Below, piece after piece: positions 1,627 to 52,062 of a stretch of 64,000 nt of DNA. Below the pieces are notes generated by a model. It did no database searches. It saw only the letters and a list, made by a program, of their open reading frames with translations, and had not been told where the DNA came from. The stretch is from Rugalucina vietnamica (lineage: Eukaryota > Mollusca > Bivalvia > Lucinida > Lucinidae). Within the stretch, counting starts at the first letter, position 1, and each line of letters starts with the position of its first letter. The translations under genes were made by a program, and so were the position numbers. The stretch spans positions 26,435,621 through 26,499,620 of the forward strand of contig OZ024870.1 of assembly GCA_964017185.1 (NCBI GenBank), read 5' to 3'.

Positions 1627-3580
1627 ACCAGAGGACCAATGGTCCTGTAAACGCTCACCTGAGATCTGCAGCATATACCAATAAACATGTTTGAATATTA
1701 TGGTATTTAATCCCAGTGCAGGGGCAGATGAAGCCCTTGGGCCATTTTCTTTTTCAGAATAATCAATATTTTGTCCATTTGCCAATTTCCTGCTGGCTTT
1801 TTCTTCAAATGACATTTTAACAGTTATTCCCATTCAAATGCATTGGCAACCCATGTTGACCTTGCCATAAACTGGGTCAAGGTCATCACAGGGTCATGAT
1901 TTATATATACATTGTAGTACTTGAGCCATCGATGCTTCAAGCCAAGTTTCCTTGAAATCTGTCCACTGGTTCCGGAGAAGAAGATTTTTGAGAGATTTTT
2001 ACCATATATGGGCCTGGTGGCCATCTTGGTCATGTGACCTGGATTATTTATATATACATTGATTACCCCATAATTTAGATGCTTCACATAAAATTTGGCT
2101 TTGATTGGCCAAGTGGTTTCAGAGGAGCACATGTTTGAATATTATGGAGATATACAAGTATATTGCCCCGGGGTGGGGGCATATGAGCCCCTGTGGTCCA
2201 TTTTTTGTCAGAATCATTAATAGTCAGTCCTTTAGCCCATTTCCTGCAAGACTTTCACTTTAAATGACATTTTAAAAGTTTTCCCCATTCAAATGCATTG
2301 GTGACCTATGTTGACCTTGCCATAAAATAGGTCAAGGTCATCACAGGGTCATGATTTATATATACATTGCAGTGCTTTAGCCATCGATGTTTCATGCCAA
2401 GTTTCATTGAAATTGGTCCAACGGTTCCAGAGAAAAAGATTTTTGAAGGGTTTTTACAATATTTGGGCATGGCGGCCATCTTGGTCATGTGACCTGGATT
2501 ATTTATATACACATTGGTTATCCCTTCCCATTGATGCATTACATAAAATTTGGCTTTGATTGGTCAAGTGATTTCAGAGGAGCAGACGTTTGAACATAGT
2601 AAAGATATACATGTATATTGCCCCGGGGTGGGGGCACATGAGCCCCTGGGGTCCATTTTTTTTTCAGAATCATTAATATTCAGTCCTACTGCCCATTTCC
2701 TGCAAGACTTTCACTTTAAAGGACATTTTAAAAGTTTTCCCCATTCAAATGCATTGGCGACCTATGTTGACCTTGACGTAAAATAGGTCAAGGTCATCAC
2801 AGGGTCATGATTTATATATACATTGTAGTGCTTTAGCCATCGATGCTTCATGCCAAGTTTCATTGAAATTGGTCCACCGGTTCCAGAGAAAAAGATTTTT
2901 GAAGGGTTTTTACCATATATGGGCATGGCGGCCATCTTGATCATGTGACCTGGATTATTTATATACACATTGGTTATCCCTTCCTATTGATGCTTTACAT
3001 AAAATTTGGCTTTGATTGGTCAAGCGGTTTCAGAGGAGAAGACATTTGAATATAGTGAAGATATACATGTATATTGCCCCGGGGTGGGGGCACATGAGCC
3101 CCTGGGGTCCAATGTTTTTCAGAATCATTAATATTCAGTCCTACTGCCCATTTCCTGCAAGACTTTCACTTTAAATGACATTTTGAAAGTTTTCCCCATT
3201 CAAATGCATTGGTGACTTATGTTGACCTTGCTGTAAAATAGGTCAAGGTCATCACAGGGTCATAATTTATATATACATTGTAGTGCTTGAGCCATTGATG
3301 CTTCATGCCAAGTTTCGTTGAAATCGGTCCACTGGTTCGGGAGAAGAAGATTTTTGAAGGGTTTTTACTATATATGGGCATGGCGGCCATCTTGGTCATG
3401 TGACCTGGATTATTTATATACACATTGGTTCCCCCTTCCCATAGATGCTTCATGTAAAATTTGGCTTTGATTGGCCAAGCTGTTTCAGAGAAGAAGATCT
3501 TTGAAAATGGTGGACGACGGACGACGGAGCATGGGTATACTATAAGCTCACCTTGTGAGCCTGACGGCTCAGGTGAGCTA
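1627..3580 (+). mobile_element. CTCACCTGAG-type repeat element, copy 1
   Basis: Begins ACCAGAGGACCAATGGTCCT, which contains a near-perfect hairpin AGGACCA-A-TGGTCCT, then GCTCACCTGAG. It ends in CTCAGGTGAGCTA, so the termini are inverted repeats. Just inside the right end, AGCTCACC..TGAGCC and GGCTCA..GGTGAGCT form a second hairpin. The interior is about four tandem units of ~455 bp; the conserved word GGTCAAGGTCA recurs at about 1876, 2332, 2787 and 3240. Each unit also carries GGTCATGTGACC. No protein-coding frame is conserved; short minus-strand frames arise because the unit lacks stops there. Not assigned to a named superfamily. Confidence 0.75.
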
Positions 3581-5535: not shown

Positions 5536-8501
5536 TAATAATAATATAATAATAATAATAATAATAAAGACTTTATTTCACGAGGGTAACACAATTAGTA
5601 CGAAACTAATCTCCCTTGCGGCCCTCAAATATTTACAAATATTAGCAATAAATATTCTCTCCATACACTGACACCTCACTCCACACATTCACACAAACAA
5701 TTAATAGTCAAATGAAAATAAAAGTTAACAAAAGAACAAGCATATAAATGAAATGAATCAATTAATTAATGAGACACAACAATGATAAGACTCAATGAAT
5801 ACACAATGTACAATGCATGAATAAATGAATTTACAAATTAATGAATGAATGAATAAATGTTGAATGAATGAATGAATGAATAAATGAATGAATATAAAAA
5901 GGAAAATAAAATTATTGAAACATAGGTACAGAATAAATGAATGAATAAATACACAAAATAATGCATTATTAGGTAGCCTTCATCCACTTAATACATCTGG
6001 AATGAAAGGAGCTGATAGAGGGAGCATTCTTTACATTGGTTTCAAGATAACTCCAAATAACTGGACCTGAAAATGCCAAACTACCTTTAAATAGTTCAGT
6101 ATTTGGTTTAGGTAGCAAAAAGTTGTCCGCAGTCATGGATCGTAAAACGTAAGAATCTTGGATATTGTCAGGACCTTGCCTTTTGCTAAACATTTCCATT
6201 ATATATTCAGGAGTTAAATTGTTTGAAACTTTGTACATAAACTTCGCTTTTCTGAAAAATACTCTTTCAGTCATTGACATAATTTTCAGATCATTCATTG
6301 ACTGATATATATTATCAACATTAAAGTCAAGGATTGTCCTACACGCTCTCCTTTGCAATTTTTCTATTTGCATTAAATTTGCTTTGGATGTGCTACCCCA
6401 TACAATATTTGCATAGTCCAGATGAGGTTGTATGTAACTTCTATAATACATCAACCTATGTTCCATTGATAAATAGACCTTAATTTTGGAAAGTAGCCAA
6501 ATATTTGTTGACATTTTTCGAGTAACTTTTCGTACATGGTCCCCCCATAAGAGATTGTTATCAATTTCTACTCCCAAAACCTTTTCTTTCTGAACAGTTA
6601 CTAATTGGACATTGTTAAGTGATAATTGAAGACTGTCATCAAGTCTGCTTCTTCTTTGCCTTGTAGTTATTAACATTGCTTTTGTTTTGTCAGTGTTAAT
6701 GACCATCCCATTCTGTTTACACCACGATGCTACTTCTGTGATTGCTTTCTGTAATTTTCTTTCTATCTCTTCCTTTGACTTACTAATTTCGTAAAGTGTT
6801 GTATCATCAGCATAAAGATCAGTCATTGCTTTAGTATATAAAGGAAGATCATTTATAAAAAGGAGGAACAAAAGTGGCCCTAAAATGGACCCTTGAGGCA
6901 CTCCACATTTAACAGTTTTTTGGGCGGAGAATGTATCCCTAAAATATACCTTTTGAGTCCTATGAGAGAGATATGACCTAAACCAGTTTAGGCAAGTTTC
7001 ATTTAACTTATAATATTTCAATTTTCTTAATAAAATTTCATGATCTACTAGATCAAAGGCTTTACGAAAATCTACCAACACTACTCCAACTAATTCACCC
7101 CTATCCAAAGCTTTTAGCCATTTATCAGTCATATATAACAAAGCTGTCTCACAGGAATGACTTGGTCTAAAACCTGATTGTGTACTATACAACAGTTTGT
7201 ATTGTTCCAAAAAGCTTAATAATGATTCATGTACATGTTTTTCGAAAAGCTTTGAAAGGACTGGTAAAATTGAAATAGGCCTGAAATTATTCAGATCATT
7301 TGTTGGTCCTCCTTTATGTAATGGTTTCACCTTTGCTTCCTTCCATTTTTCTGGAAAAGACCCTGTTCTAATGCTTAAGTTACATATAAACGTCAAGCTT
7401 TCAGCAATAAAAGGAGCAGCCATTTTCAAAAGTCTTGGCCCAATGTCATCAGTTCCTGTAGATTTTCTTACATCCAGATTCTTCAAATATTTAAGAATTT
7501 TATCTGTATTTGTTAGAGGCATATCAAAGAAAACATTTTGAGGAATTTTTTCTTTGCAGTATTCCTGAAGTTTATCATGATTAGAGGGGTCAATGGGTTC
7601 TTTTATATTCTCTGCTACATTTACGAAGAAGTCATTAAAAGTATTTGCCATATCCTCGGGTTCATAAATTTCATGTTCGCCGTTTTTTAATGAACTAGTG
7701 CAGGTAGAAGAGTCAGTCTTTTGCTTACCTGCACCTAACTCGCTAAAAATTTTCCATATGGTTGTGGGCTTGTTATCCCCTTCTTCTATTAGTTTTTCAT
7801 AATTGTACTTCTTAGCTTTCTTGATCTGATTGACAACATTATTCCTCCAGATTTTATATTCAGAAGTGTCTCCTATAGCCTTGTAATGGTCTCTAGTTTT
7901 TATACTATCAATAATTTCTGGTGTTAGCCAGTCTGGCTGCTTGACTTTTTTTACTCTATGCTGCTTTAGAGGGACATGCTTGTCTACTACCTCAGTGAAC
8001 AAAGAATACCAGGTGTCGAGAGCATCATCTACAGTATCAAATACCTTTATAACATCCCAAGGGACTGACTCTAAATCTTCATTAAATTTTGAAATTTCAA
8101 AATTTTTGAACGATCGATATTTGATAGTGTGGTGAGTTGATCTTGAGTTGCAACAGTTAACCTTTCTTGTAAAGAAAATAGGAAAATGATCACTTAAACC
8201 AATTTTGGGGACATCTGAAAACTGAATATTGACAGAGAAATTAGAATAGACATGATCCAGGAGTGTTGCACTGGCATTTGGTACAACACGTGTGGGTTCT
8301 TTAATGTGTTGCTTTAATCCAAGTGAATTTATATAGTCAAGCCATTGATTTTGAATTTGTGCATTTAACAAATCTCTATTGAAGTCACCTAGCAAGAAAA
8401 ATTCTTTACCTTCATCATGTGCCATCTCTACTTGTTCGTCAAAAGTGTCATTCCAAGATATATTTGAATTCGGATTTCTATAGAAATTTCCAATTAAAAA
8501 A
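5536..8501 (-). mobile_element. 5'-truncated CR1/Jockey-group LINE retrotransposon
   Basis: A minus-strand non-LTR retrotransposon. The 3' end is at low coordinates: AATAAA-like sequence followed by a (TTA)n tail (5536-5568 on the plus strand), with a (TGAA)n-rich 3' UTR at 5815-5960. The 5' end stops inside the endonuclease domain at about 8501, the usual result of incomplete reverse transcription. Flanking GTGA at 5532-5535 and 8502-8505 is a short target-site duplication. The insertion point is the terminal repeat of the copy-2 element. The frame is intact, so the insertion is probably young. Confidence 0.85.
5969..8425 (-). CDS. LINE ORF2 fragment: endonuclease C-terminal part plus reverse transcriptase
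   Basis: 818 codons without stop or frameshift. Residues 13-16 are GDFN and 78-84 SDHFPIF, the C-terminal motifs of the apurinic-type endonuclease that nicks target DNA. The reverse transcriptase follows: KVKPLHKGG at 365-373, FRPIS at 381-385, SGFR at 417-420, motif A VLVDFRKAFD at 449-458, motif B GVPQGSILGP at 508-517 and catalytic YADD at 538-541. LGVEID at 617-622 and a PHLDYANIVWG segment near 667-677 are typical of CR1/L2/Jockey-like elements. The first Met is not the real start: the frame stays open upstream to about 8506, encoding further endonuclease sequence (IGNFYRNPNS), and then meets the truncation point. ORF1 and the endonuclease N-terminus are absent, so the copy is not autonomous. 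Clade assignment is by motif memory only. Confidence 0.88.
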   Translation of the reverse strand: MAHDEGKEFFLLGDFNRDLLNAQIQNQWLDYINSLGLKQHIKEPTRVVPNASATLLDHVYSNFSVNIQFSDVPKIGLSDHFPIFFTRKVNCCNSRSTHHTIKYRSFKNFEISKFNEDLESVPWDVIKVFDTVDDALDTWYSLFTEVVDKHVPLKQHRVKKVKQPDWLTPEIIDSIKTRDHYKAIGDTSEYKIWRNNVVNQIKKAKKYNYEKLIEEGDNKPTTIWKIFSELGAGKQKTDSSTCTSSLKNGEHEIYEPEDMANTFNDFFVNVAENIKEPIDPSNHDKLQEYCKEKIPQNVFFDMPLTNTDKILKYLKNLDVRKSTGTDDIGPRLLKMAAPFIAESLTFICNLSIRTGSFPEKWKEAKVKPLHKGGPTNDLNNFRPISILPVLSKLFEKHVHESLLSFLEQYKLLYSTQSGFRPSHSCETALLYMTDKWLKALDRGELVGVVLVDFRKAFDLVDHEILLRKLKYYKLNETCLNWFRSYLSHRTQKVYFRDTFSAQKTVKCGVPQGSILGPLLFLLFINDLPLYTKAMTDLYADDTTLYEISKSKEEIERKLQKAITEVASWCKQNGMVINTDKTKAMLITTRQRRSRLDDSLQLSLNNVQLVTVQKEKVLGVEIDNNLLWGDHVRKVTRKMSTNIWLLSKIKVYLSMEHRLMYYRSYIQPHLDYANIVWGSTSKANLMQIEKLQRRACRTILDFNVDNIYQSMNDLKIMSMTERVFFRKAKFMYKVSNNLTPEYIMEMFSKRQGPDNIQDSYVLRSMTADNFLLPKPNTELFKGSLAFSGPVIWSYLETNVKNAPSISSFHSRCIKWMKAT

Positions 8502-12677: not shown

Positions 12678-14196
12678 CCTCCGGGTGTGAACATCTTAGG
12701 TCCATTTTTTTTCAGAATCATTAATATTTAGTCCTACTACCCATTTCCTGCAAGATTTTCACCTCAAATGACTTTTTAAAAGTTTTCCCAATTCCAATGC
12801 ATTGGCGACCTATGTTGACCTTGTCTTAAAATAGGTCAAGGTCACCACAGGGTCATAATTTATATACACATTGTAGTACTTCAGCCATTGGTGCTTCATG
12901 CCAAGTTTCTTTGAAATCGGTCCACCAGATTCGGAGAAGAAGATTTTTGAAGGGTTTTTACCTTATATGGGCATGGCAGCCATCTTGGTCCTGTGAACTA
13001 GATAATTTATATATACATTAATTCCCCCATTCCATAGATGCTTCACATAAAATTTGGCTTTGATTCGCCAAGCGGTTTCAGAGGAGAAGATGTTTGAATA
13101 TTATGGTAATATACATGTATATTGCCCCGGGGTGGGGGGCACATGAGCCCCTGGGGTCCATTTTTTTCAGAATCATTAATATTCAGTCCTACTGCCCATT
13201 TCCTGCAAGACTTTCACTTTAAATGACATTTTAAAAGTTTTCCCTATTCAAATGCATTGGCGACCTATGTTGACCTTGCCGTAAAAAAAGGTCAAGGTCA
13301 TCACAGGGTCATGATTTATATACACATTGTAGTACTTGAGCCATTGATGCTTCATGCCAAGTTTCTTTGAAATCGATCCACCGGTTCTGGAGAAGAAGAT
13401 TTTTGAAGGGTTTTTACCATATATGGGCATTGCGGTCATCTTGGTCATGTGACCTGGATTATTTATATACACATTGATTACCCCTTCCTATTGATGCTTC
13501 ATATAAAATTTGGCTTTGATTGGCCAAGCGGTTTCAGAGGAGATGATGTTTGAATATTATGGTAATATACATGTATATTGCCCCGGGGTGGGGGCATATG
13601 AGCCCCTGGGGTCCAATTTTTTTCAGAATCATTAATATTCAGTCCTACTGCCCATTTCCTGCAAGACTTTCACTTTAAATGACATTTTAAAAGTTTTCCC
13701 CATTCAAATGCATTGGCGACCTATGTTGACCTTGCCGTAAAATAGGTCAAGGTCATCATAGGGTCATGATTTATATACACATTGTAGTGCTTGAGCCATC
13801 AATGCTTCATGCCAAGTTTCGTTGAAATCAGTCCACTGGTTCTGGAGAAGAAGATTTTTGAAGGGTTTTTACCATATATGGGCATGGCGGCCATCTTGGT
13901 CATGTGACCTGGATTTCTTATATACACATTGGTTCCCCCTTCCTATAGATGCTTCATATAAAATTTGGCTTTGGTTGGCCAAGCGGTTTCAGAGAAGAAG
14001 ATCTTTGAAATTGTGGACGGACGGACGGACGACGGACAACGGACGGACGGACGCCGGATCATGGCCATCCTATAAGCTCACCTTGTGAGCCTAACGGCTC
14101 AGGTGAGCTAAAAATACCATTGAGATTTTTACAATGTACAAAATTTTTACAATGTAGAAAAAAATCAGTATATTTCATGGGCATGTTTTCGTAATG

Positions 14197-27019: not shown

Positions 27020-28260
27020 GGAAGCTTCTAGCTCCCATCTGAAGTCAGTGGAAGCTTGGAGCTGCCTAAGCAAACAAAGTTGTCTCTTTCCTCATCTAAA
27101 GTCAGTGAAAGCTTGGAGCTGCCTAAGCAAACAAAGTTGTCATTTTCCTCATCTGAAGTCAGTGGAAGCTTGGAGCTGCCATAGCAACCAAAGTTGCCAC
27201 TTCCCTCATCTGAAGTCAGTGGAAGCTTGGAGCTGCCATAGCAACCAAAGTTGCCACTTCCCTCATCTGAAGTCAGTGGAAGCTTGGAGCTGCCTAAGCA
27301 ACAAAAGTTGCCATTTTCCTCATCTGAAGTCAGTGGAAGCTTGGAGCTGCCATAGCAACTAAAGTTGTCACTTTCCTCATCTGAAGTCAGTGGAAGCTTG
27401 GAGCAGCCATAGCAACCAAAGTTGCCACCTCCCTCATCTAAAGTCAGTGAAAGCTTGGAGCTGCCTAAGCAAACAACGTTGCAATTTTCCTCATCTGAAG
27501 TCAGTGGAAGCTTGGAGCTGCCACAGCAACTAAAGTTGTCACTTTCCTCATCTGAAGTCAGTGGAAGCTTGAAGCTGCCATAGCAACCAAAGTTGCCACT
27601 TCCCTCATCTGAAGTCAGTGGATTCTCAGAGCTGCTGCCATTTTCCTCATCTGAAATCAGTGGAAGCTTGTAGCTGCCAAAGCAAACAAAGTTGTCATTT
27701 TCCTCATCTGAAGTCAGTGTTAGCTTGGATCTGCCTGTGCAACCAAAGTTGCCTCTTTCCTCATCTGAAGTCATTGGAAGCTTGGAGCTGCCAAAGTTGT
27801 CATTTTCCTCATCTGAAGTCAGTGAAAGCTTGGAGCTGCCTAAGCTAACAAAGTTGCCATTTTCCTCATCTGAAGTCAGTGTAATAGGCTTGGAGCTGCA
27901 TAAGCAACCAAGGTTGCCACTTTCCTCATCTGAAGCCACTGTAATAGGCTTGGAGCTGCATAAGCAACCAAAGTTGCCACTTTCCTCATCTGAAGTCAGA
28001 GGAAGCTTGAAGCTACAAAAGCAAATAAAACTGCCACTTTCCTCATCTGAAGTCAGTGGAAGCTTGGAGCTGCCATAGCAACCAAAGTTGTCATTTTCCT
28101 AATGTGAAGTCAGTGGAAGCTTGGAGCTGCCTGAGCAACTTTCCTCATGTGAAGTTAGTGGAAGCTTTGAGCTGCCATAGCAACCAAAGTTGTCATTTTC
28201 GTCATCTGAAGTCAGTGGAAACTTGGAGCTGCCAAAGCAACCAATGACAACTTTCCTCAT
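27020..28260. repeat. 57-bp minisatellite, about 20 units
   Basis: Unit of 57 bp with core AGTCAGTGGAAGCTTGGAGC and CTTTCCTCATCTGAAG. Some units are shortened. Because 57 is divisible by three, several frames are open for hundreds of bases. Confidence 0.93.
27028..27939 (-). CDS. Possible 19-residue-repeat protein (303 codons) within the minisatellite
   Basis: The minus-strand frame translates as about 16 repeats of a 19-residue unit, consensus SKLPLTSDEENDNFGCYGS. Each contains an acidic TSDEE motif of casein-kinase-2 type, one or two Cys and SSKL. Shortened units remain in frame. Upstream the repeat continues to about 28260, but a unit near 28098 has a stop (SH*EN). The frame ends after LTSDGS. 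No signal peptide, initiator context or splice site was clearly identified. Competing plus-strand frames are also open, so this may be only a minisatellite. Confidence 0.3.
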   Translation of the reverse strand: MASDEESGNLGCLCSSKPITLTSDEENGNFVSLGSSKLSLTSDEENDNFGSSKLPMTSDEERGNFGCTGRSKLTLTSDEENDNFVCFGSYKLPLISDEENGSSSENPLTSDEGSGNFGCYGSFKLPLTSDEESDNFSCCGSSKLPLTSDEENCNVVCLGSSKLSLTLDEGGGNFGCYGCSKLPLTSDEESDNFSCYGSSKLPLTSDEENGNFCCLGSSKLPLTSDEGSGNFGCYGSSKLPLTSDEGSGNFGCYGSSKLPLTSDEENDNFVCLGSSKLSLTLDEERDNFVCLGSSKLPLTSDGS

Positions 28261-48436: not shown

Positions 48437-49712
48437 TATAGAAGGTGCTTTTGACACCCAATCTTAACTGGAGAGCGGTGCTTTTGATTCCCAATCTTTA
48501 CTGGAGAGGGAGAGATGCTTTTGACACCCAATCTTTACTGGAGAGCGGTGCTTTTGATTCCCAATCTTTACTGAAGAGAGAGAGGTGCTTTTGATTCCCA
48601 ATCTTTACTGGAGAGCGGTGCTTTTGATTCCCAATCTTTACTGGAGAGGGAGAGGTGCTTTTGACCCCAAATCTTTACTGGAGAGAGGTGCTTTTGACAC
48701 CCAATCTTTACTGGAGAGCGGTGCTTTTGATTCCCAATCTTTACTGGAGAGGGAGAGGTGCTTTTGACACCCAATCTTTACTGGAGAGCGGTGCTTTTGA
48801 TTCCCAATCTTTACTGAAGAGAGAGAGGTGCTTTTGACACCCAATCTTTACTGGAGAGCGGTGCTTTTGATTCCCAATCTTTACTGGAGAGGGAGAGGTG
48901 CTTTTGACCCCAAATCTTTACTGGAGAGAGGTGCTTTTGACACCCAATCGTTACTGGAGAGCGGTGCTTTTGATTCCCAATCTTTACTGGAGAGGGAGAG
49001 GTGCTTTTGACCCCAAATCTTTACTGGAGAGAGGTGCTTTTGGCACCCAATCCTTACTGGAGAGAGGTGCTTTTGACACCCAATTTTTAATTATGAGAGA
49101 CAGAGAGAGAGGTGCTTTTGACATCCACTCTTTTCTGGAGAGAGAGGTGCTTTTGACACCCAATCTTTACTGAAGAGACAGAGAGAGGTGCTTTTGACAC
49201 CCAATTTTTAATTATGAGAGACAGAGAGAGAGAGGTGCTTTTGACATCCACTCTTTTCTGGAGAGAGAGATGCTTTTGACACCCAATCTTTACTGAAGAG
49301 AGGTGCTTTTGACACCCAATCTTTACAGGAGAGAAATGCTTTTGACACCAAATCTTTACTGGAGAGACACCCAATCTTTACTGAACAGACAGAGAGAGAC
49401 AGAGAGAGAGAGATGCTTTTGACACCCAATCTTTACTGAAGAGAGGTGCTTTTGACACCCAATCTTTACAGGGGAGAAATGCTTTTGACACCAAATCTTT
49501 ACTGGAGAGAGGTGCTTTTGACACCCAATCTTTACAGGAGAAAAATGCTTTTGACACCAAATCTTTACTGGAGAGAGGTACTTTTGACACCCAATCTTTA
49601 GTGAAGGGGGAGGTGCTTTGGACACCCAACCTTACTGAAAAGAGGGGCTTTTGACACCCAATCTTTACTGGAGAGAGAGGTGCTTCTGACACCCAATCTT
49701 TACTGAAACTAA
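48437..49712. repeat. ~33-35-bp minisatellite, about 36 units
   Basis: GGTGCTTTTGACACCCAATC plus TTTACTGGAGAGA repeats for 1.28 kb. Alternating GATTCCC / GACACCC / GACCCCA variants give a higher-order period of about 70 bp, and (GA)n spacers vary in length. Frames on both strands are repeat artefacts. It ends 15 bp from the donor of the candidate exon at 49727-49782, inside its intron. Confidence 0.93.
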
Positions 49713-49858: not shown

Positions 49859-50073
49859 CCGAGATTATAAAACTTTTTTCATGCTCAATTCAGCTGAGCA
49901 AAAAATTTCAACTGCTCATTAATAGCAAAATAGCCAACATAAAATGAGACTTTAGGTTAAGATCACCAAAAGACTGTAATTTATCCTGCTTATAAATGTT
50001 AAAATTCCAACAATTGTTGGCATTTTAACATTTATGAGCAGGATAAATTTTAGTCTCAGATGAGCTGAGCATC
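49859..50073. mobile_element. Family B MITE, copy 3, right end lost
   Basis: GAGATTATAAAACTTTTTTC start and central palindrome AACAATTGTTGGCATTTT. The right terminus is cut off at GAGCTGAGCATCAATAAG where the next element begins. Confidence 0.75.
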
Positions 50074-50077
50074 AATA

Positions 50078-52062
50078 AGAGCTGTTGCAGGACAGTGTGC
50101 TCGACTGCTTCTGACCTTTGTCAAACATAAGGCCAAACCAAACCAGTAACCCAAAGCATTATGCTCATACATCTTTTTGCCTTGATGCAATAAGGCAAAA
50201 TTACTGAACCATGAAAGTTAACTATAACTACCTAAGATTTATAGGTCTCACTCATATTGTGAAAGAAGTGTGTTCATATACACAAGGCAAAATCACTGAA
50301 CCGTGAAATAAGGTCACAGTGACCTATAAGTATTTCAGGGTCAAAGGTCTAGTGATACTTACTCATAATGTGAAAAAAATATGATCATATACCCATTCAG
50401 TGTTGAGATATAAAGCAAAATCACTGAACCATGAAATTAGGTCATAGTGACCTATAAGTATGTTTGGGTTAAAGGTCTGGTCATACTCATTCATAATCAA
50501 CACAAGAGAGGAATCAGAAAGAAGTATGAAAAAATACCAACTGAGTGTCGAGATATAAGGCAAAATCACTGAACCATGAAATTAGGTCACAGTGACCCAG
50601 GAATACTTTACAGTCAAAGGTCTTGTCATACTCATACATATCGTGAAAGAGGTATGTTCATATACCAGTTGAGTGCCAAGATATAAAAGAAAATCACTGA
50701 ACCGTGAAATTAGGTCATATTGACCTAGGACTTCTTTAGGGTCAAAGGTCTTGTCATACGCAAACATAGTGTGAAAGAAGTTTGTTCATAAACTACTTGA
50801 GTGCCGAGATATAAGGCAAAGTCACTGAACCGTGAAATTAGGTCACAGTGACCTATAAGTATATTGGGGTCAAAGGTCTGGTCATACTCACTCATAATCT
50901 GAAAAAAGTATGAAAATATACTAATTGAGTGTCAAGATATAAGGCAAAATCACTGAACCGTGAAATTAGGTCACAGTGACCTAGGACTACTTCTGGGTCA
51001 AAGGTCTTGTCATACGCAAACATACTTTGAAAGAAGTTTGTTCATAAACCATTTGAGTGCCGAGATAAAAGGCAAAATCACTGAACAGTGAAATTAGGTC
51101 ACAGTGACCTATAAGTACATTGGGGTCAAAGGTCTGGTCATACTCACTCATAATCTGAAAAAAGTATGAAAATATACTAATTGAGTGTCATGATATAAGG
51201 CAAAATCACTGAACCGTGAAATCAGGTCACAGTGACCTATAAGTATACTGGGGTCAAAGGCCTGGTCGTACTCACTCATAATCTGAAAGAAGTAAGAAAA
51301 TATACTAATTGAGTGTCAAGATATAAGGCAAAATCACTGAACCATGGAAAGTAGGTCAACCGACCCTTACCGTCATGACACACAAGTCTGTGTCACAAAG
51401 TCAAAAGATGAATGACCAACCATCTTCCTAAGTTGTTTCTATTAAGAAATAAAAAGAAAAAAAATTCTGGGAGTTCTAGATTTTGACCTCTAGCCCCGCC
51501 CCCCTGACTCCGACCCAGAGGTCCGATGTCATGGAACCTAAAGTGTATGAAGTATGAATGCTTTATGATAAGTTGTTGTCAAGATATGGACTCCTTGTAA
51601 AAGTTACACAGCAGTACAACTATTTTTACAGTGTTCTAGTTTTTAACCTCTAGCCCCACCCCCCAGGCATGGACCCAGAGATCCGATGCCATGAAATGAA
51701 ACTGAACCCTACAGGGTACCTATGGTCCGAGTATGAAAGCCCTCTGATAAAAAGTTTTCAAGATATAGACTTCTAGAATACTATATCACAGAAAAGCCAT
51801 TATTATTAATGGTGTTCTAGATTTTAACCTCTAGCCCCACCCCCTGGCATGGACCCAGGGATCTGATGCCATGGAATGAAAGCCGACCCTACAGGGTGTC
51901 AATGGCCCAAGTATCAATGCTTTCTGATGAGTGGTGGTCAAGATATGGACTTCTAGAAAACTTTAACGCAAGTGTGACACGCACGGGAACGGGAACGGGA
52001 ACGTGGACGACCGGGGTGACTGCAATAGCTCTATGCACTTCGTGCAGTCGAGCTAAAAAGTT
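50078..52062 (+). mobile_element. 2-kb repeat element carrying the ERE array
   Basis: Left end GAGCTGTTGCAGGACAGTGT and GCTCGACTGC. Right end GGGTGACTGCAATAGCTCT and GCAGTCGAGC, so the inverted pair is GCTCGACTGC / GCAGTCGAGC. Interior: a 128-bp tandem array (50190-51360), then three ~175-bp units starting TTCTAGATTTTGACCTCTAG at about 51475, 51640 and 51815, then GGGAACGGGAACGGGAACG. Fragments of the same family end at 47690 and 31600. No ORF. Superfamily not recognised. Confidence 0.65.
50284..51364. promoter_or_regulatory. Array of estrogen-response-element palindromes at 128-bp spacing
   Basis: AGGTCACAGTGACCT is present at 50311, 50840, 50968, 51096 and 51224. Perfect half-sites with other spacers (TAG, TAT) are at 50439 and 50712, and a one-mismatch copy at 50584. 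Successive starts differ by exactly 128 bp except one interval of 145 bp. The 15-mer matches the consensus ERE as known from vitellogenin promoters. About 12 bp downstream of the palindrome each unit also has GGGTCAAAGGTCT-like sequence, close to a DR1 nuclear-receptor site. That receptors bind here is inference. Confidence 0.7.

Follow-up and report, generated by a model that had tools for sequence, protein, structure and literature searches.

A non-autonomous Helentron-type element carries tandem estrogen-response-element palindromes with a possible footprint of a dimeric protein

The window, i.e., the whole stretch of 64 kb that was analysed, contains a non-coding mobile element of the Helitron2/Helentron type (HINE) on the minus strand. 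The array of palindromes which drew attention to this region is the central tandem repeat of this non-autonomous element. The features of the element are listed below from its 5′ end to its 3′ end, with the basis of each assignment in brackets.

50074..52056, minus strand: whole HINE, true 5′ end at 52056 and true 3′ end at 50074 (shared boundaries, end anatomy)
52044..52053, minus strand: 5′ asymmetric, subterminal inverted repeat GCTCGACTGC in the minus-strand reading (copy comparison)
52034..52046, minus strand: 5′ palindrome TGCAC-GAA-GTGCA, which overlaps the inverted repeat (sequence)
51984..52003, minus strand: short (GTTCCC)n microsatellite of the 5′ module (sequence)
51473..51962, plus strand: second tandem array, unit of about 180 bp (GTTCTAGATTTTAACCTCTAGCCCCACCCC...) (sequence, repeat search)
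51330..51371, plus strand: degenerate last unit (AGGTCA-ACCGACCC; no intact palindrome, at about 51352), left half-site kept and right one lost (sequence)
50284..51358, plus strand: main tandem array, 128-bp unit, eight units with an ERE-type palindrome (sequence, repeat search)
51224..51238, no strand: perfect palindrome AGGTCACAGTGACCT (pattern match)
51096..51110, no strand: perfect palindrome AGGTCACAGTGACCT (pattern match)
50968..50982, no strand: perfect palindrome AGGTCACAGTGACCT (pattern match)
50840..50854, no strand: perfect palindrome AGGTCACAGTGACCT (pattern match)
50712..50726, no strand: perfect palindrome AGGTCATATTGACCT (pattern match)
50584..50598, no strand: one-mismatch palindrome AGGTCACAGTGACCC, a recurring form found in 23 of 262 units (pattern match, unit set)
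50439..50453, no strand: perfect palindrome AGGTCATAGTGACCT (pattern match)
50311..50325, no strand: perfect palindrome AGGTCACAGTGACCT (pattern match)
50201..50283, plus strand: degenerate low-end unit with no intact palindrome (sequence)
50099..50108, minus strand: 3′ subterminal inverted repeat GCAGTCGAGC in the minus-strand reading, upstream of the 3′ hairpin (copy comparison)
50081..50096, minus strand: 3′ hairpin GCTGTC-CTGC-GACAGC, the form of most copies shown; the window copy has two changes (copy comparison)

The eight palindromes match AGGTCANNNTGACCT with at most one mismatch, seven of them perfectly, and AGGTCACAGTGACCT accounts for five of these seven. They are inverted repeats of AGGTCA with a 3-bp spacer, which is the organization of an estrogen response element (ERE). 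None of 100 shuffled sequences reaches eight matches (mean 0.13). The spacing is 128 bp, save for one interval of 145 bp. The pattern match thus reproduces the starts, the spacing and the count of seven perfect sites and one mismatched site given in the initial annotation. The annotation also placed a DR1-like GGGTCAAAGGTCT after each palindrome, which is slightly too strong: when read from the window sequence, this motif is exact after five of the eight palindromes and has one or two mismatches after the other three.

The boundaries of the element are defined by comparison of copies. The low-end boundary, 50074, is common to the 11 copies shown, and nine further stretches have edges in common with the window copy, at this position and at positions as far as about 51972. 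At its right-hand edge the element reads TGCACTTCGTGCAGTCGAGCTAA, with the last base at 52056. In the minus-strand reading the order is TTAGCTCGACTGCACGAAGTGCA, the (GTTCCC)n microsatellite, the array of ~180-bp units, the 128-bp array, and an end made of GCAGTCGAGC, the hairpin and TCTTATT. The 5′ module holds a microsatellite and the centre holds tandem repeats, as in HINEs, and the inverted repeats are placed asymmetrically, with GCTCGACTGC 3 bp away from the 5′ end and GCAGTCGAGC about 25 bp away from the 3′ end. A 40-base 3′ stretch of one copy (L008) folds into the expected stem of the 3′ hairpin, with an energy of -10.1 kcal/mol (RNA parameters); a 45-base 5′ stretch of the same copy folded into another stem, and the 5′ palindrome is visible in the sequence. 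A T is found directly outside the 5′ end in 22 of 26 copies, the base outside the 3′ end is evenly distributed (7/7/6/6), and no target duplication was seen by eye. In keeping with a non-coding HINE, no reading frame of 130 amino acids or more is present within 50074-52056 (shorter frames were not listed). Classical satellite DNA was rejected as a description of the array, which sits inside an element with fixed ends.

The element is abundant. The 3′ end pattern has 2,799 matches in the genome (42 bases, at most three mismatches) and the 5′ end pattern has 5,176 (25 bases, at most two mismatches), two counts which come from patterns of unequal length. The low end was recovered at 31 places, of which 26 also carry the other end within 4.5 kb, with lengths of 1,983-4,327 bp. 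Some 3′ ends continue into unrelated sequence, so it is likely that there are one-ended or chimeric copies, or related families with one end in common. At two loci (L060 and L062) the HINE low end is followed by other DNA without intact arrays, and no long reading frame occurs in the 3.5 kb examined. Over the first 200 bases, the median divergence from the consensus is 1.6% for the 26 copies (3.0% for the window copy), 15 of which were chosen by a perfect 42-base end, a choice that favours young copies. This low divergence suggests a recent spread. At least 150 matches to rolling-circle Rep domains were found in the genome (409 first-look candidates, 150 scored). The anatomy of the element and its thousands of copies bear out the earlier proposal of a mobile element which spreads ready-made clusters of ERE palindromes.

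The 1.09-Gb host genome contains 22,978 perfect palindromes, versus 20 for a reversed-pattern control. A genome search for palindrome arrays near the 128-bp spacing had been proposed in the initial annotation; among the matches listed, which cover the first 2.65 Mb of contig C1, 82 of 83 distinct perfect sites form such ladders, and a lone perfect palindrome lies at C1:2265558. If the host is a mollusc or its receptor is similar, a ChIP experiment on this receptor would have to take into account that such a share of the listed EREs belongs to the ladders of one transposon family. Outside the element, AGGTCA occurs at 1.25 times the fourth-order expectation and ranks 331-332 of 4,096 (185 kb, some loci overlapping); a general enrichment of half-sites in the rest of the genome was rejected on this ratio. 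We infer that the 22,978 palindromes arise from copying of the element, not from host selection on each copy. The exact 24-place pattern of the unit has no match in viral_contigs and none in genome_contigs.

Elements of this kind are known from other hosts. The passages available from a study of the oyster Crassostrea gigas describe Cg_HINE, or Cg170-HindIII, repeats and Pearl, with non-autonomous Helentron-type ends and a microsatellite in the left module, as here (PMC7492417). According to the same passages, the central repeats of Cg_HINE form short arrays with units mostly of 140-180 bp, once as two consecutive arrays; two arrays are present here too. The oyster work covers 7,151 arrays in 13 clusters, and one Cg_HINE group has repeat segments of reduced variability (PMC7492417, same passages). 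The element of the window differs from the Cg_HINE described there by its 128-bp unit with a perfect ERE palindrome, and the terms "nuclear receptor" and "transcription" are absent from the main text of the oyster paper (PMC7492417). Helitron2, as presented in an excerpt of its description, resembles the window element by hairpins at both ends and by asymmetric inverted repeats of 8-15 bp, the 5′ one terminal and the 3′ one upstream of the hairpin; a preference for T at the 5′ end is also described for Helitron2, and unlike this group, the window element is non-coding (PMC3627910). DINE-1 and the HINEs of mites and Culex, in the portion of the report at hand, resemble the window element in description by subterminal inverted repeats, a 3′ palindrome and central repeats; they belong to other hosts, and their insertion sites are T-rich (PMC4067079).

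The evolution of the repeat unit was followed in 26 copies of the HINE. Fifteen were chosen by the element end; the other 11 (the window copy and copies taken from palindrome places) lean to intact sites because of the way they were chosen. These copies gave 282 units, of which 270 were kept and 12 with less than 60% identity were dropped. The mean divergence in the 270 units is 0.03 in the half-sites, 0.18 in the spacer, 0.07 in the DR1-like stretch and 0.14 in the rest. Eight more units were dropped for gaps, and a tree was built with the remaining 262. Of their palindromes, 192 match perfectly at all 12 bases, about seven per copy. The internal branches of this tree represent the spreading lineage; the terminal branches represent mostly post-insertion changes, though pre-insertion variants can fall there.

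On the internal branches of the 262-unit tree the half-sites have 0.58 changes per site, their ten core bases 0.30, the spacer 3.33 and the positions elsewhere 2.10. Conversion between units could bias these counts. Among 128 template offsets, that of the half-sites comes lowest (permutation P 0.0026). With base-matched expectations, seven changes are observed in the half-sites against 30.5 expected, and three in the core against 26.0 expected. A cleaner set of 237 of the 262 units was obtained by dropping 25 units in which the palindrome contains a gap or the identity is below 70%, and its tree was built without columns 1-32. In this set the ten core half-site bases have no internal change and the three spacer bases have eight (binomial P 8e-6), with 1.34 changes per site elsewhere. 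Among the 128 offsets, the half-site template comes lowest here too, and the spacer-minus-half contrast ranks second, or third with the all-column tree. When a distant anchor is used to cut the units (232 of 236), the core has one internal change versus 15.1 per ten sites (permutation P 0.0002); in alternate halves of this unit list the core has none in each (P 0.0003). The array of ~180-bp units (55 units) has too few changes for an informative contrast as a control.

Thus, the half-sites hardly changed while the inner units of the array diverged, and the 3-bp spacer changed freely. This conservation is a statement on inner units, because the dropped units include some that lost the palindrome, chiefly the last ones of the arrays; when the palindrome-losing units are included, the core has three internal changes instead of none.

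The picture is different after insertion. In the first tree test on the 262 units, terminal changes in the half-sites are mildly reduced relative to the background (P 0.085). The base-matched terminal ratios of the same units are 0.66 for the half-sites (P 0.014), 0.54 for a neighbouring box discussed below and 0.63 for the DR1-like site, and the cleaner set of 237 units gives 2.10 terminal changes per site in the core versus 2.88. With the units cut by the distant anchor, P is 0.10 for the whole set, 0.48 in one half and 0.015 in the other. Genome-wide, the anchor ATCACTGAACCNTGAAAT marks 19,138 units; the 11 tested bases of the palindrome are intact in 15,615 of them (81.6%), and 11 bases of a different block, itself fairly stable, are intact in 14,725 (76.9%). 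The mild post-insertion reduction is therefore not specific to the palindrome. Clear conservation of each copy at the level of the host was rejected, as the terminal changes are near background. Since inserted sites decay at almost the same pace as the remainder of the unit, the constraint acted on the spreading element and not clearly on the host. The initial annotation would count as refuted if palindrome bases diverged like the rest of the unit and no receptor binding were detected; as to the first condition, in the element lineage the half-sites evolve more slowly than the rest, whereas their decay after insertion is close to background.

The constraint extends beyond the palindrome. Just before it lies the box CACTGAACCRTGAAAT (also given as CACTGAACC), whose internal ratio is 0.24, compared to 0.23 for the half-sites (262 units). 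In the set of 237 units this box has 0.46 internal changes per site versus 1.56 for columns 33-112 in a first tree, and 1.00 versus 1.52 in a second tree. The constraint is thus not ERE-specific, because this similarly conserved box is no ERE; by eye, the TGAACC that it contains could be read as a further receptor half-site. The DR1-like site is weakly conserved (internal ratio 0.67, 262 units).

The genome encodes a protein that might read such sites. There are 75 zf-C4 exon matches, of which 30 became loci and were read. Two adjacent exons on contig C4 read as the DNA-binding domain of an estrogen receptor, with the P-box CEGCKAFF. In the PDB, the 72 residues obtained by joining them match AncSR1 (5.3e-43), the estrogen receptor structures 1hcp (4.6e-39) and 1hcq (6.4e-39), and ERR (2.5e-30). 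By motif, other zf-C4 loci resemble ERR, RXR, HNF4 and COUP-TF. This receptor set, like the HINE arrays, would be compatible with a molluscan host. The host estrogen receptor that the initial annotation presumed is thus represented by a DNA-binding domain with an ERE-type P-box.

The estrogen receptor of a snail, Marisa cornuarietis, has been studied. In the sections of that report at hand, its DNA-binding domain bound GGTCAnnnTGACC without ligand, its ligand-binding domain was constitutively active, and Marisa ERR did not bind the ERE, a result given there as data not shown (PMC3778743). The claim that molluscan estrogen receptors are ligand-independent holds, from the same sections, as published for this one mollusc (PMC3778743).

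The contrast between half-sites and spacer would be a footprint left by a dimeric protein that binds DNA and that the element used while it spread, and it is likely that such a protein reads the palindrome during this phase. It is plausible that this reader is the host estrogen receptor, which is the best candidate because the site matches the ERE at 12 of 12 positions and a receptor-type DNA-binding domain with a matching P-box is encoded. Taken as a whole, the reading of the array as a HINE repeat with the half-site/spacer footprint of a dimeric protein, with this receptor as the best candidate, has in our estimate about an even chance of being right. The palindrome could instead be a recognition site for the zinc finger of the element's own Rep/helicase, or for another factor that the element encodes, and its match to the ERE a coincidence. 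A transposition signal would be constrained in the lineage that spreads and less clearly so in copies once inserted, as is observed, and the adjoining box, which is no ERE, is under the same constraint. Such a coincidence would have to produce a 12-of-12 match to the site of a named host receptor, and some related oyster HINEs keep similar flanks with unrelated central repeats (PMC7492417, passages available), so that transposition in general needs no given central repeat; we consider a site for an element-encoded protein improbable.

Neutral hitchhiking deserves slightly more weight, although it too is unlikely: the founder repeat would have had an ERE-like palindrome by chance, and the conservation would be only apparent, caused by the small number of unit classes and by homogenisation between units. 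Tandem arrays do homogenise, decay after insertion is near background, the end units lost the palindrome, and the motif was chosen post hoc, in a window of 64 kb that has 77 rows of tandem repeats. Homogenisation should however affect arms and spacer alike, yet there are eight spacer changes versus none in the core, the half-site template is the lowest of the offsets, and the core is unchanged in both halves of the unit list. A function as a DNA or RNA hairpin or cruciform, for example in replication slippage that makes the array grow, is very improbable as an alternative to a protein site. The commonest form, AGGTCACAGTGACCT (117 of 262 units), does form an inverted repeat, its 7-bp arms separated by a one-base loop, but the C-G pair which flanks its centre is freely broken (the spacers TAT, TAG and CAC occur in 26, 21 and 20 of 262 units), for which reason a cruciform function was rejected, and compensatory pairs in the arms are absent among the 25 commonest forms listed.

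If the reader is the estrogen receptor, receptor clusters might, more speculatively, maintain open chromatin at the donor copy in germ-line cells that express the receptor, and open chromatin would let the rolling-circle machinery act on this copy. The broader proposal is that element-level selection made a rolling-circle transposon keep clusters of dimeric estrogen-receptor sites, that this transposon exploited a constitutively active host receptor for mobility or expression in the germ line, and that it thereby seeded about 23,000 perfect EREs in the genome of an invertebrate; the receptor may need no hormone. We hold this scenario to be rather doubtful. The locus also offers a candidate case in which the footprint of a host receptor site on the element may be told apart from constraint at the level of the host.

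Transposons that spread consensus receptor sites have a precedent in the primate Alu elements, whose DR2 retinoic acid response elements include several that are bound in vivo, according to the excerpts available (PMC1785376). These excerpts report 108,582 consensus DR2 sites, 90% of them in Alu, which arose largely via CpG deamination of a non-consensus motif (PMC1785376). Unlike the Alu DR2 so described, the palindrome of the HINE is ancestral to the copies, stands in tandem rows and is conserved in the element lineage (PMC1785376). Thus, bivalve HINEs with central repeats and transposons that spread receptor sites were already known, and what is new is the evolutionary footprint. Among the titles and opening parts of abstracts listed in the literature searches, none describes a transposon whose copies each bear about seven perfect EREs with a footprint of constraint.

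Several other repeats lie in the window. An inverted repeat with arms of 43 nt, 91% complementary and without a loop, is found at 49971-50056, 17 bases outside the low end of the HINE; it could stem from an older palindromic insertion or mark a preferred target. Just below the HINE, an array of units of about 33-35 bp, GTGCTTTTGACACCCAATCTTTACTGGAGAGAGA, spans 48443-49705. A 57-bp tandem repeat occupies 27036-28244, and a 303-aa frame of 19-residue repeats (LTSDEESGNFGCYGSSKLP-like) on the minus strand (27028-27939) is open through part of it. An 818-aa frame on the minus strand (5969-8425) resembles, by eye, the endonuclease/reverse transcriptase of non-LTR retrotransposons. Two arrays with units of about 455 bp and a similar consensus are found at 1721-3512 and 12699-14058; a (GGAC)n microsatellite comes after the second array, which may form the central repeats of another HINE family.
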